Positions 39,187-44,652 of a DNA stretch of 64,000 bases are shown piece after piece. This DNA comes from Boudabousia liubingyangii (GTDB lineage: Bacteria > Actinomycetota > Actinomycetes > Actinomycetales > Actinomycetaceae): contig NZ_MQSU01000001.1 in NCBI RefSeq assembly GCF_001907245.1, positions 146,224-210,223 on the forward strand, given 5' to 3'. Under the pieces are notes generated by a model, which worked only from the letters and a program-made list of their open reading frames with translations, made no database searches and was not told where the DNA came from. A program made the translations under genes and the position numbers. Each line of letters opens with the position of its first letter. Position 1 is the stretch's first letter.

Positions 39187-41787
39187 TCAGGCGTCCGCGA
39201 TCGGGATCGCGTGCGGTTCCCCGCTGATGCGAGAAGGCATGGAAACCACCTCGGAAACCGGACGCAAGCCCATCCACCACTGGAAGCGCGGGCGGCGGTT
39301 TTCAACCTCAACGACCTCCATCATGCGGTCAATGGGGGCGGTCTCAATCGCGTCCTCGGTCAGGCCAATGTAAACAGCCTTCGCGGCCGGCGGGACCCGA
39401 CGAGCCAAACCGTGACCGGCGGCCTCGTTAAGGGCATCTTCTTCGACCAGGGTGCGCTCTACCCAGTCCATCGCGTGGAAGACTAGGCGGGTTGCCAGTA
39501 GACGGTCGAAGGGGGTTGGCGAGCCACCCTGCTGCAGGTGACCCAGCGCGGTGTGGCGGACGTCGTAGAGGCCACGGCCTTCGCTTTCGAAGACGCGAGC
39601 TAGGAAGTCGCGGTTGTAAAGCTTGGAGGCTTCCTCATTGACTAGGACCATGAATAGGCGGCGGCCACCCTCGAAGGACTCGCGCATGCGCAGGGCGTCA
39701 CGGTTAAGCTGCTCCAGGGTCAGGCCGTCTTCGTGCAGGTAGGTAAGTTCCGCACCAGAAGCGATACCAGACATGAGGGCCAGGTAGCCGCAGCGGCGAC
39801 CCATGGTTTCAGCCACGAAGCAACGGCGGGAAGCGGCGGCGGATTCCTTGATCCGGTCTAGGGCCCAAACCGCGTTGTTTAGTGCGGTATCGGCGCCGAT
39901 CGACAGTTCTGAACCGGGTAGGTTGTTGTCGATGGAGGCCGGGACGCAGATGATCGGAATATTGAAGGCCTGGTAGCGTTCGCGTTCCTTGACCAGCTCG
40001 TAGGCGGACAGGTAGGCATTGAAGCCACCGATGATGATCATGGCGTCAATATTGTTGTTTTCAATGGCGCGACCTAGGGAGTAGAGTTCCTCGACGGTCG
40101 GGACGGGGCGGCGGGTACCTAGTTCGGCACCACCTTCGAAGGCCCAGCCTTCGACGCCATCCCAGCTGAGTTCCTCGACCTTATTGTCGATCAGGCCCTT
40201 GAAGGAGCCCTGGACACCCAGGACGGTCATGCCCTTGTCGATGCCAATGCGGACGGCCGCGCGAGCGGCGGTATTCATACCGGGGGCTAGACCGCCAACG
40301 TGTAGGACGGCGACGCGCTTGCCGGCGGCGGGGCGGCTGGCTTCTTCCCAGGCGTGCCCCGGGGACGAGGCCGCTTCCGGGCTCTGCGCGGCCACGTGAT
40401 CTAGGACCGCGTTGCGGGCGTGCTCAACCTTGCCGGTGGTCTGCTCTAGTTCCGCCAGGCGCTGCTGGGCCGGGGGTTCGACGCAGTCGGTTCCCAGGGC
40501 CTTGTTGGCCGGGGCGTAGGACGGCGGGGTGGACATGATGCGGTTGATCTGGATCATCTGCGCGAAAGAGGAACCACGCAGGCGCACGGCCGAGGTGTAG
40601 TCGCCTTCCTTGATCAGGCCCGCGACGGAGCGGGTGTCCTTCACGGCCTTCATCATGTCGATGCGGGCCACGCGGTTGTGGCGGACACCCAGGATCTGGG
40701 GTTCGTCTTCGGGGGTGGCGCGCAGGACTTCTTGGACGGCAGCGTAGCCAAGGACGGTACTCATCCAGCGGTCGTAGGCGCTGGGGGAACCACCGCGCTG
40801 GACGTGACCCAGGATGGTGACGCGGACGTCCTCGTTCATCTTTTCGGAAAGGACGTCGGCGACGTGTTGGGAGGTAATGGGGTTGCCGTGACGGTCTTGA
40901 GCGCCCTCGGCCACTAGGACTAGGGAGTCGCGACGACCGGCGGCACGACCTACGCGCAGTTTGTTGGCTAGTTCGTCTTCCCAGCCATCTTCCGGCGGTA
41001 CTTCGGGGATGAAGACGTAGTCGCAGCCGCCGGCAATACCGGCCATGAGGGGCAGGTAACCGCAGTGTCGACCCATGACCTCAACGACGAAGGTGCGCTG
41101 GTGGGAGGCGGCGGTAGAAGAGATGGCGTCGATGGCGTCGACGATGCGGTGTAGGGCAGAGTCCGCACCGATGGTCATGTCGGAGCCGACTAGGTCATTG
41201 TCGATGGAGCCGACTAGGCCGCAGATCATGAGGTTGGGGTGGGCGTCGGCCTGTTCGGCGGTGATTTCGCCCATTTCCTTTAGTTCACTGATCAGTTGGG
41301 GCCAGAGGAGGCGGAATTCGTTGGTGCCGGTGAGGGAGCCGTCACCACCGATAACGATTAGGCGGTCGATGCCGTAATCAATTAGGTTCTTGGCGGCGCG
41401 ACGCATACCTTCGTGTTCACGGAAGTCTTTGGAGCGGGCGGTACCAATGACGGTGCCACCCTTATTGAGGATGGAGGAGACGTCGGACCAGCCGAGGGGG
41501 CGGATGCGGTCTCCCCCGTCGCAGGCTCCCTGCCAGCCTTCCATGATGGCGCAGGGCTGGACACCCATGGCTAGGGCGGTACGGGCAACGGCGCGGACGG
41601 CAGCGTTCATGCCTTGGGCGTCGCCACCGCTGGTTAGTAGGCCAATTCGGTGCGAGGTGGGCGAGTTGGAGCCGTCGGCGGCGACGGTTTCGACCTCGTC
41701 TTTACTGGCCGGACGTGGATGGATATCTGATTCTTGGAGCTGGTCTAGCAGTTCTTCAGTTTCGGGGTTCTGGGCCGGTGAGCTCAC
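39187..41787 (-). CDS. Tandem-domain (eukaryotic-type) ATP-dependent 6-phosphofructokinase
   Basis: An 866-aa enzyme, over twice the usual bacterial length (about 320 aa), expected to phosphorylate fructose 6-phosphate. Two PFK domains are fused. The N-terminal one (about 47-415) has intact catalytic parts: LLTSGGDAQGMNAAVRA, GGDGS (147-151), SIDND (194-198), VMGRHCGYL and GHVQRGGSPS (327-336). The C-terminal one (about 490-850) keeps the fold but has GGLAPGMN, GGFNA (587-591) in place of GGDGS, and SIDNN (618-622) in place of IDND, so it is probably regulatory. This split, and blocks such as GGTVIGTARSKDFRE and VPASIDNNLPGSELSIGAD, follow animal/fungal PFK. GTG at 41787 is preceded by GAGGAGG. 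Confidence 0.93.
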   Translation of the reverse strand: MSSPAQNPETEELLDQLQESDIHPRPASKDEVETVAADGSNSPTSHRIGLLTSGGDAQGMNAAVRAVARTALAMGVQPCAIMEGWQGACDGGDRIRPLGWSDVSSILNKGGTVIGTARSKDFREHEGMRRAAKNLIDYGIDRLIVIGGDGSLTGTNEFRLLWPQLISELKEMGEITAEQADAHPNLMICGLVGSIDNDLVGSDMTIGADSALHRIVDAIDAISSTAASHQRTFVVEVMGRHCGYLPLMAGIAGGCDYVFIPEVPPEDGWEDELANKLRVGRAAGRRDSLVLVAEGAQDRHGNPITSQHVADVLSEKMNEDVRVTILGHVQRGGSPSAYDRWMSTVLGYAAVQEVLRATPEDEPQILGVRHNRVARIDMMKAVKDTRSVAGLIKEGDYTSAVRLRGSSFAQMIQINRIMSTPPSYAPANKALGTDCVEPPAQQRLAELEQTTGKVEHARNAVLDHVAAQSPEAASSPGHAWEEASRPAAGKRVAVLHVGGLAPGMNTAARAAVRIGIDKGMTVLGVQGSFKGLIDNKVEELSWDGVEGWAFEGGAELGTRRPVPTVEELYSLGRAIENNNIDAMIIIGGFNAYLSAYELVKERERYQAFNIPIICVPASIDNNLPGSELSIGADTALNNAVWALDRIKESAAASRRCFVAETMGRRCGYLALMSGIASGAELTYLHEDGLTLEQLNRDALRMRESFEGGRRLFMVLVNEEASKLYNRDFLARVFESEGRGLYDVRHTALGHLQQGGSPTPFDRLLATRLVFHAMDWVERTLVEEDALNEAAGHGLARRVPPAAKAVYIGLTEDAIETAPIDRMMEVVEVENRRPRFQWWMGLRPVSEVVSMPSRISGEPHAIPIADA

Positions 41788-42064
41788 GAATCCTCCTCGA
41801 TTACGGTTGGCGGTTGACGCTATTCCCTTCAAGTTTCTCACCATAGGTGGGGAAATGCATAGGTATTTAACAGCTTATGCATCAGGTCACAGTTTTCGCT
41901 ATTCTAAAAAAGTAGATTGCGCAGAAATTGGCAATCTAATACTTTTTAGCTGATTAGTTCGGCTGAGAAATTTTTACTTTTGTTAGTAACTATTTCGGAC
42001 TAGAAGTCATTTTGACTGTTTTTCAGCAAAAAACCCGATATTCAATCTAAAAGAGGGGGATAGC

Positions 42065-44053
42065 GTGAAAAGAACTTACGCGACTCTAGCAGTGGCCGCT
42101 TTGGCAGCGACTGTACTTGTCCCCGTAAGCGCCCAGGCTGAAGCCGATACCCATCCTGTATCTACGTCAGCTGACACTTACGGTCAGAAGCTAACTAAGC
42201 GCTTCGTGGTGAAGTTCAAGGAAGGCACCCGTGACGCTCGGACTGTTACTGATTCCAGCCGTCATGAAAATACCGCCCAGAAGCTCAGCTCCAGCACGCA
42301 AGATCGCGTAGCCCGGGCCGCTTCCCAGGCTGGTACCCAGGTTGAAGGCGGCAAGGCTGCCCTACCTTCGATTACCACCATTGAACTAAAGAAGCCCCTA
42401 AATGAGGCTGACGCTAAGCGCTTCATGGAGCGTGTTTCCGCTAACCCCAACGTCGAATACGTCGAACCCGACATTGAGGTTAAACAGCTTGCCGAAGTCA
42501 GTGAAGAAACCCCTGAAGCTCCGAACGATCCCCGTTTCGAAGAACAGTGGTCTCTACACAAGGAATGGGGCATTGATGTGCAGGGCGCATGGCGTCACAC
42601 CAAGGGTCGCGGCGCGACTGTCGCCGTCATTGACTCTGGCATCATCAACCACCCCGACCTACGTGATCGCTACCTAGGCGGTTACGACTTCATTTCCAGT
42701 GCCCGGATTTCTCGTGACGGCGATGGCCGTGACGACGACCCGAATGATGAGGGCGACTGGACTGAAAAGGATGCTTGTGGTTACAACAAGCCTGACCGCT
42801 TCATTTCTTCCTCTTGGCACGGTTCGCACGTGGCCGGCATCATTGCTGCCACCCAGAACAACCGCGAAGGCATTTCGGGTATTGCTCCCGAAGCTAGCCT
42901 GATTCACGCCCGCGCCCTAGGTAAGTGCGGTGGTACCTCTGCTGATATTGCCGCTGCTATTACTTGGGTTTCCGGCGGTAAGGTCCCAGGCGTACCGGTA
43001 AACGAACACCCCGCTAAGGTCATCAATATGTCCCTAGGTGGCGCTTCGAACACCTGCCCTCGCTACTACCAGGATGCGATTAACGAAGCTACCCGCCGCG
43101 GTGCCGTAATCGTGGTGGCTGCTGGTAATGAGGCTAAGGATGCCCGCAACTCCGTTCCCGCTAACTGCGATAACGTGATCACCGTGGCTGCTTCTGGTCC
43201 GACCGGTAAGCTTTCCTACTTCTCTAACTACGGACGTCGGATTGACTTGACTGCCCCCGGTGGCGATGCCCACTACAAGAACGGCACGATTCTTTCCACC
43301 GTGGACTCTGGTCGCACCACTCAGCGTTCCTTCACCTACGGTCAGATGCAGGGCACCTCTCAGGCTGCTCCGCACGTCGCTGGTGTCGCTACCCTACTGA
43401 AGGCTATGGATCCCGATCTGACCTTCGATGAGGTCCGTGACCTGCTGACTGAGAACACCAAGCCGCTAGCTTCTTGCACCAAGGGCTGTGGCACTGGGCT
43501 TTTGAACGCTAAGAAGGCTACCGATGCCCTAGCTGAACAGTTGGGTGAGACTCCGGAACCGACCCCGGCCCCCAAGCCGACCCCGAAGCCAGATCCCAAG
43601 CCCGCTCCGAAGCCAGACCCGAAGCCGGCACCTAAGCCGACCCCGCAGCCTGACCCGAAGCCGACCCCGCAGCCCGATCCGAAGCCGACCCCGCAGCCCG
43701 ATCCGAAGCCGACCCCGCGTCCGGATCCCAAGCCGACTCCGGTTACCAACCCGAGCCTATTCATGTCTCAGTACTACCTCTACCAGGGTGGCAGCACTGA
43801 GGTTCGTGGTTACAACTTCACCCCGAATGCTCGGATTACCTTCTACGTTGATAACCAGCGTTCCTACCTAGGCTCTGCCTACGCTGACCGTTTCGGTATG
43901 GTCCGCGTCCCGTGGCGCCTGTCCTACTACATCAGTGCGGGCTCGCACAACCTGATTGCGGTTGATTCCAAGACCACTAGGGTTGCGACTACTTCCTTCA
44001 CTGTTCGTAGCCGCAGCTACTACAACGGCGGTTACTACCGCTGGTGGCGCTGA
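42065..44053 (+). CDS. Secreted subtilisin-like serine protease (S8) with I9 propeptide
   Basis: A 662-aa exported protease. A Sec signal (about 1-26, cleavage near AQA), an I9 propeptide (about 44-138, ending [10 protein letters not shown]) and an S8 catalytic domain (about 155-490) follow in order. The triad is Asp190 (VIDSG), His252 (HGSHVAG) and Ser432 ([11 protein letters not shown]), with oxyanion Asn355; cysteines at 238, 288, 331, 368, 471 and 475 may pair. A Pro/Lys-rich spacer (about 498-560) leads to a Tyr/Arg-rich C-terminal domain of about 95 residues. The start is GTG with GAGGGGGA upstream. The TGA overlaps the ATG of a lipoprotein. No sortase motif is seen. Confidence 0.95.
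43554..43748 (+). repeat. Pro/Lys/Thr/Asp tandem repeats in the subtilase
   Basis: Short in-frame repeats encode PKPTPQPDP-type units; the clearest are 24-bp copies around 43630-43715. They form the extended spacer between the catalytic and C-terminal domains. Near-identical DNA copies suggest recent slippage. Confidence 0.85.
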
Positions 44054-44589
44054 TGCGAATGACGCGAAAAGGAGCAGCTCTAGCCCTCACGTTCCCCCTG
44101 GTGTTTGGACTGGGTGCGTGTAGTTCGGCAGCAGACGAAGCGAAGACCCCGGAATCGGGCACTTCGAAGACTGTTTCCGCTACTCCCAGCCCTAACCCCA
44201 GCGAGGAAACCGTGAAACCACCTCAGAGTCAATCCGTTCCGCTAACGCCAGAAGGCACTGCCGAACCGGGCTCTGGTTCTTCCCCGGCGGGCACGCCCGC
44301 CCCAGGAACCGGGCAGCCGGCCAGTTTCGACCTGGAACTGAACCCAAAGGATCCCATTGTAGAAGGATTCCAGGACGGTCAGGTACCACTGGCTTTTGAT
44401 GCCAAGCTCAAGGAACTAGCCCAGAAGCACAAGTGTGAAAGTGACTCCGTTGCCATTGGCAGCACCACTTTCATTACCTGGTCGCTGAACTGTGCTGACC
44501 TGAACGAGCTCGAGGCGCTAGCTAAGGAATTAGCTGCGCAGCCTGAGATCGATCACGTCACGCCCGGCGTTCGGATGTCGAACCGCTAA
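44053..44589 (+). CDS. Lipoprotein with I9-like C-terminal domain, coupled to the subtilase
   Basis: A 178-aa lipoprotein whose ATG (44053) overlaps the subtilase TGA as TGATG; ATG at 44059 is also possible. The signal ends at lipobox LGAC (Cys23). About 80 residues of Pro/Ser/Thr/Gly linker follow. The last 65 residues resemble the protease's own propeptide: ITWSLNCADLNELEALAKEL then AAQPEIDHVTPGV parallels the propeptide's [16 protein letters not shown] then [14 protein letters not shown]9 propeptides fold and inhibit their protease, so this is plausibly a membrane-anchored inhibitor or folding helper in trans. Two cysteines (about 138 and 158) may pair. The similarity is by eye and needs a profile search. 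Confidence 0.8.
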   Translation: MRMTRKGAALALTFPLVFGLGACSSAADEAKTPESGTSKTVSATPSPNPSEETVKPPQSQSVPLTPEGTAEPGSGSSPAGTPAPGTGQPASFDLELNPKDPIVEGFQDGQVPLAFDAKLKELAQKHKCESDSVAIGSTTFITWSLNCADLNELEALAKELAAQPEIDHVTPGVRMSNR

Positions 44590-44607
44590 GGCAAGCAAAA
44601 CTAGATA

Positions 44608-44652
44608 AATCCCCCGTCAGTCCTCCTTGGAGGCACTGGCGGGGGATTTCTT
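44608..44652 (+). terminator. Rho-independent terminator after the protease-lipoprotein pair
   Basis: AAATCCCCCGTCAGT pairs with CACTGGCGGGGGATTT (two small interruptions) around an inner CCTCC-TT-GGAGG hairpin, followed by TTCTTT. Confidence 0.85.

Follow-up and report, generated by a model that had tools for sequence, protein, structure and literature searches.

The propeptide of a subtilase acts both as an intramolecular chaperone and as an inhibitor of the enzyme. In known cases, the propeptide sheet binds two parallel helices of the enzyme, with two acidic residues capping these helices (Glu69 and Asp71 in BPN') and the C-terminal tail entering the cleft; the PfSUB1 tail counts six residues between the cap residue Asp211 and the terminal Asp217 (PMC6993865). 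Propeptide-like proteins are also encoded as separate genes. In Aeromonas sobria, the gene for ORF2 lies immediately downstream of that for the subtilase ASP, and ORF2, an external chaperone and inhibitor with an IC50 of 84 nM, binds ASP with its C-terminal residue (Lys) at the catalytic centre (PMC5638518, citing J Biol Chem 2015;290:11130). ASP has no propeptide, and ORF2 is described as a chaperone needed for maturation. The Plasmodium protein SUB1-ProM is likewise a stand-alone propeptide-like protein encoded beside subtilase genes, and is a potent and selective inhibitor; this system is eukaryotic and probably resides in the parasitophorous vacuole lumen, and the available part of its description mentions no lipid anchor (PMC6993865). 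Yeast peptidase B inhibitor, Pleurotus peptidase A inhibitor 1, and Arabidopsis propeptide-like inhibitor 1 also use the propeptide fold as a separate small inhibitor; all three are eukaryotic and are said to be without significant sequence similarity, with anchoring not mentioned (PMC6993865).

Among cysteine proteases, SpeB–Spi of Streptococcus pyogenes and the staphopain–staphostatin pairs each combine a protease gene with a neighbouring gene for a specific inhibitor, the two being co-transcribed, and Spi is called a propeptide analogue; these inhibitors are thought to be cytoplasmic (PMC2873492, PMC3462683). The Bacteroides C10 protease inhibitors Bfi and Bti are adjacent to their proteases and co-transcribed with them where tested, several are predicted lipoproteins, and a role in cell protection has been proposed; however, they are staphostatin-like rather than propeptide-derived, and their targets are cysteine proteases (PMC2873492, PMC3462683).

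Here, we describe a pair of genes in a 64,000-nucleotide stretch (hereafter, the window) of the genome of Boudabousia liubingyangii, a member of Actinomycetaceae, to which Actinomyces also belongs. Like ASP–ORF2, it is a subtilase with a gene immediately downstream that encodes a propeptide-like partner. In contrast to ASP, which lacks its own propeptide, the window protease keeps a cis propeptide, and its partner carries a membrane anchor signal; the partner also shows detectable homology to the propeptide of its own protease, unlike the eukaryotic stand-alone inhibitors, and its C-terminal tail is similar in length to that of SUB1-ProM. The original prediction knew of no bacterial pair of this exact design. 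This holds in a narrower form: the general design has close precedents in SpeB–Spi, the Bacteroides lipoprotein inhibitors, and ASP–ORF2, whereas no description of a membrane-anchored propeptide relative beside a subtilase that keeps its own propeptide was found in the open-licence literature. The kind of system is known, and the combination and its repeated origin appear to be new. The features of the locus are as follows.

42065..44053, + strand: secreted S8 subtilase of 662 aa, GTG start and TGA stop (Pfam Peptidase_S8, E = 1.7e-62)
42194..42484, + strand: cis I9-type propeptide of the protease (partner-domain profile match, E = 6e-11)
42605..43462, + strand: catalytic domain of the protease, residues 181–466 (Pfam)
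43553..43744, + strand: Pro/Lys-rich linker in the protease (from the translation)
43748..44050, + strand: C-terminal domain of the protease, about 100 residues, with the aromatic-rich end YYRWWR (from the translation)
44051..44055, + strand: TGATG stop/start overlap (from the sequence)
44053..44589, + strand: lipoprotein gene overlapping the end of the protease gene, TAA stop (open reading frame)
44053..44121, + strand: predicted lipoprotein signal peptide with lipobox LGAC, Cys23 (match to the Gram-positive lipobox pattern)
44122..44304, + strand: Pro/Ser/Thr-rich linker between anchor and domain, lipoprotein residues 24–84 (from the translation)
44305..44586, + strand: stand-alone I9/propeptide-like domain, lipoprotein residues 85–178 (profile homology and AF2 model)
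44569..44586, + strand: C-terminal tail of the lipoprotein, VRMSNR, six residues past the strand-4 cap position (from the translation)
44607..44649, + strand: intrinsic terminator-like hairpin 3' of the second gene (folding energy -33.1 kcal/mol, z = -7.9)

The lipoprotein frame has three candidate starts (GTG 44044, ATG 44053, and ATG 44059), and the lipobox with Cys23 is numbered from ATG 44053. The coordinates of the original prediction are correct, with an ATG overlapping the protease stop codon, and this TGATG overlap suggests translational coupling. A two-gene transcript is likely because a strong hairpin follows the second gene and none was reported between the two genes by a simple terminator scan; that scan did not list the 44607..44649 hairpin either, which was detected by folding with a z-score. 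The overlap, the hairpin after the lipoprotein gene, and the conserved adjacency described below mark the two genes as a putative co-encoded pair. Elsewhere in the window, the frame at 39187–41844 (- strand, 885 residues) reads as if two 6-phosphofructokinase-type domains were joined in one protein.

The catalytic Asp, His, Asn, and Ser motifs of the protease are intact (DSGI at 190, HGSHVAG at 252, AGN at 353, and GTSQAAPH at 430). A search of the 2.03-Mb genome identified this protease as its single S8 enzyme, so the target of the lipoprotein is clear. Its nearest solved relatives are Pseudoalteromonas 5yl7 and AprV2/AprB2/BprV, and the crystallised chains of these relatives start opposite residue 152 of the window protease, at APNDPR. 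The cis propeptide of the window protease left only sub-threshold traces in Pfam, including PF05922.

The C-terminal part of the lipoprotein had been proposed to align over 65 residues with the I9 propeptide of the protease. The similarity is real at the level of profiles, whereas the length was underestimated, the domain spanning about 94 residues (85–178). When searched against this genome, a profile built from 13 partner domains and no propeptides matched two places, the lipoprotein itself and the propeptide of its own protease. An hhalign comparison of all partners with all cis propeptides gave a probability of 99.1% (E = 1.1e-18) over 94 columns. With just the two partners of the window genus, it gave 82% (E = 1e-5) and a score of 34; the scores of 100 column-shuffled alignments averaged 10 and never exceeded 21. 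In two related genera (L016, L058, L052, and L055), the partner matched its own propeptide directly by BLASTP over about 95 residues, with E values of 7e-9 to 2e-13 in a small sequence set. These comparisons show that the lipoprotein domain is homologous to subtilase propeptides. The pairwise similarity between the window lipoprotein and its own propeptide is weak, and profiles were required: with the lipoprotein as sole query, searches of Pfam, NCBIfam, and PDB sequences returned nothing useful, and neither did a scan of genome contigs with the single sequence. The domain falls below the PF05922 threshold, as does the protease's own propeptide. Because the domain is below Pfam thresholds, such partners have probably been annotated until now as anonymous lipoproteins.

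The I9-type fold class originally suggested for the domain was also predicted by a single-sequence AF2 model, for which no alignment was used (E-H-H-E-E-H-E, pLDDT 81). The closest Foldseek and VIA matches in the PDB were generic ferredoxin-like proteins, such as ribosomal S6 and ACT domains. This fold is very common, too common to decide the matter, and subtilase propeptides and I9 inhibitors were absent from the listed matches; the model thus supports the fold class rather than the family. An AF2 run on alignment A4, which included cis propeptides, gave a pLDDT of 72 and again generic matches, the lower value probably reflecting a misplaced first strand in A4. In alignment A3, which combined the window domain with its Corynebacterium, Lysobacter, and Luteimonas counterparts, the first strand was out of register, and A3 played no part in the modelling.

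Conservation of the pair in relatives, on which the original prediction depended, was examined in 213 Actinomycetaceae genomes. Stand-alone copies of the partner domain at E < 1e-20 were found in 14 of them, spread over six genera, and every one lies directly 3' of a subtilase gene (14/14). All are on the same strand as the S8 gene, mostly overlapping it or a few tens of bases away, with a maximum of about 130; weaker matches in short frames (G097, G035, and G102) were left outside this count. The sister genome G003 carries the same protease–lipoprotein pair, and loci with relatives of the protease in other genera of the family supplied further partners. With an I9-type fold class predicted and the pair conserved, neither of the two outcomes named as refuting the original prediction occurred. 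Elsewhere in the class, matches to the partner profile fall in frames of more than 550 residues and are apparently propeptides of large proteases. The partner is dispensable for the protease, since half of the 28 genomes with this subtilase are without it. Every intact subtilase examined retains its cis propeptide, and the idea that the partners substitute for missing propeptides was rejected on this ground.

All 14 partners have an apparent anchor. In the window genus and in genera g24, g26, g27, and g33 it is a lipobox, and the Actinomyces partners read as having a hydrophobic N-terminal segment and no lipobox. In Actinomyces, the subtilase's own propeptide also seems to be membrane-anchored by a lipobox or a hydrophobic segment that is perhaps uncleaved (L066, L067, and L070; L051, L056, L057, L059, L060, and L063). 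With such an anchored cis propeptide, the enzyme would be released on maturation while the propeptide stayed behind at the membrane, which would be a third way to tether an I9 domain. The idea that this arrangement and a partner exclude each other is unsupported, as several Actinomyces seem to have both.

Recurrence in other lineages was traced through named genomes with relatives of the catalytic domain, followed by a neighbourhood scan with two profiles. Lipoproteins with a propeptide-like domain adjoin subtilases in Corynebacterium sp. 13CS0277, two Lysobacter strains, and one Luteimonas genome, and each subtilase at these loci retains its own propeptide. Among 201 Corynebacterium genomes, two contain a partner, both times a short distance 3' of the match to the subtilase propeptide. 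In 247 genomes of the Lysobacter family, 17 stand-alone copies could be parsed, and every one of these has a lipobox; an S8 gene lies nearby on the same strand in 12 cases, and in five no S8 gene was recognised within 1.5 kb. For four I9-like proteins with a lipobox in this family (L214, L215, L220, and L221), no S8 gene was recognised at distances up to about 1.5 kb; these proteins could be either orphan inhibitors or partners of distant proteases. In one Lysobacter cluster (L177; genome G976 contig C16, ~241–253 kb), at least four S8 genes are grouped around just one lipobox-bearing I9-like gene, whose product may act for every S8 enzyme of the cluster.

In a tree of partner and cis domains, partners from Xanthomonadaceae fall within the propeptides of that family, and those from g24/g26 cluster with the g24/g26 propeptides; the window partner sits on a long branch. 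A common origin of the Actinomycetaceae and Xanthomonadaceae partners was tested by forcing the g24/g26 and Xanthomonadaceae partners into one clade, and was rejected (AU p = 0.005). On this phylogeny, Xanthomonadaceae acquired their lipobox-bearing I9-like domains next to S8 genes independently.

The cap acids, at the positions equivalent to Glu69 and Asp71, are common in I9 domains and subtilase propeptides without strictly defining them. The window copy has lost both, with Thr and Gly in their place (VTPG), whereas most other partners read AEED, AEGD, AEPx, or IEID and keep one or both. The affinity of the window copy may therefore be lower or its role changed. The tail past the strand-4 cap position is five to nine residues long in Actinomycetaceae partners (median 6), as if it mimicked the product of an already cleaved propeptide. 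Lysobacter-type partners have longer tails.

We consider it reasonably likely that the second gene encodes a membrane-tethered I9 inhibitor, derived from a propeptide relative, that guards the envelope. The protease would be exported in zymogen form, and its own cis propeptide would bring about maturation. The lipoprotein, translated from the shared mRNA, would be displayed on a flexible linker at the outer face of the cytoplasmic membrane, where it would bind protease that is active close by. Binding would use the same face as the propeptide, with the C-terminal tail entering the substrate cleft in the style of a cleaved propeptide. Protease diffusing away would be free, directing activity outward and sparing the envelope proteins of the producer, in the way that an immunity lipoprotein shields a bacteriocin-producing cell. 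Since the protease keeps its cis propeptide, a second copy has no missing propeptide to replace. Propeptide-like proteins tested in other systems, SUB1-ProM and ORF2, do inhibit. Counted against inhibition are the lost cap acids of the window copy, the absence of the partner from half of the subtilase genomes, the generic PDB matches, and the longer Lysobacter-type tails. Many of the same facts would also fit a partner with a role in localisation only. On balance, inhibition is the reading we favour, with some reserve, over the alternatives that follow.

It is unlikely, though it deserves some weight, that the tethered copy is instead a folding helper in trans, catching the newly exported protease and aiding its folding with at most transient inhibition. 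Subtilase propeptides are classically intramolecular chaperones, ORF2 of ASP sets the example of an external chaperone from an adjacent gene with its C-terminal Lys at the catalytic centre, and a foldase would be well served by a membrane anchor where export takes place. However, every intact subtilase here retains its own propeptide, unlike ASP, and the many close relatives that have the same subtilase and no partner indicate that folding does not generally require the partner. Less probable still is a docking or retention factor, by which the lipoprotein would retain the mature enzyme on the membrane and inhibit it little or not at all. The lipobox and the long linker would serve such a factor, the loss of the helix-cap acids in the window copy may mean that binding differs in character, and the Actinomyces protease's own propeptide appears membrane-anchored; yet the partner C-terminus has the tail length of a processed propeptide and, in the usual binding mode, would obstruct the active site. 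A coincidental ferredoxin-like lipoprotein with an unrelated job, which the common fold, the first rank of unrelated ferredoxin-like proteins in Foldseek, and the weak pairwise similarity in the window might suggest, is very improbable against the profile evidence, the adjacency of all 14 strong copies in Actinomycetaceae, and the direct BLASTP matches in related genera.

The inhibitor reading extends to a wider proposal, which we regard as evenly poised: that the copying of a subtilase propeptide into a separate, membrane-anchored gene next to the protease has happened repeatedly in bacteria, each time yielding a dedicated immunity-like lipoprotein for self-protection, by which the enzyme is held inactive at the envelope of the producer and acts only at a distance. 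If true, the recurring membrane-anchored propeptide relative would reveal a simple evolutionary route from a propeptide to a dedicated self-protection protein, and would explain how producers of secreted subtilases, such as Actinomycetaceae and Lysobacter-type bacteria, spare their own surface.

In the window genus and in Actinomyces, the partner domains have cysteine pairs, which occur in none of the cis propeptides examined. The pair in the window domain is Cys44 and Cys63 (44434–44493), and the spacing differs between the two lineages (19 residues versus 26 in the Actinomyces partners L053, L054, L061, L062, L068, and L069), which suggests that a disulphide was gained separately in each. 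Given where the strands of the model begin and end, Cys44 and Cys63 are expected to be opposed across the strand 2–3 hairpin, and a disulphide between them would stabilise a long-lived inhibitor near an active protease.

Several of the partner-bearing subtilases end in short tails rich in Trp, Tyr, and Arg: YYRWWR in the window (44033–44050), and YRWFW, GWWFR, and YSWFR among the others (L015, L017, and L118). These tails possibly serve surface association.
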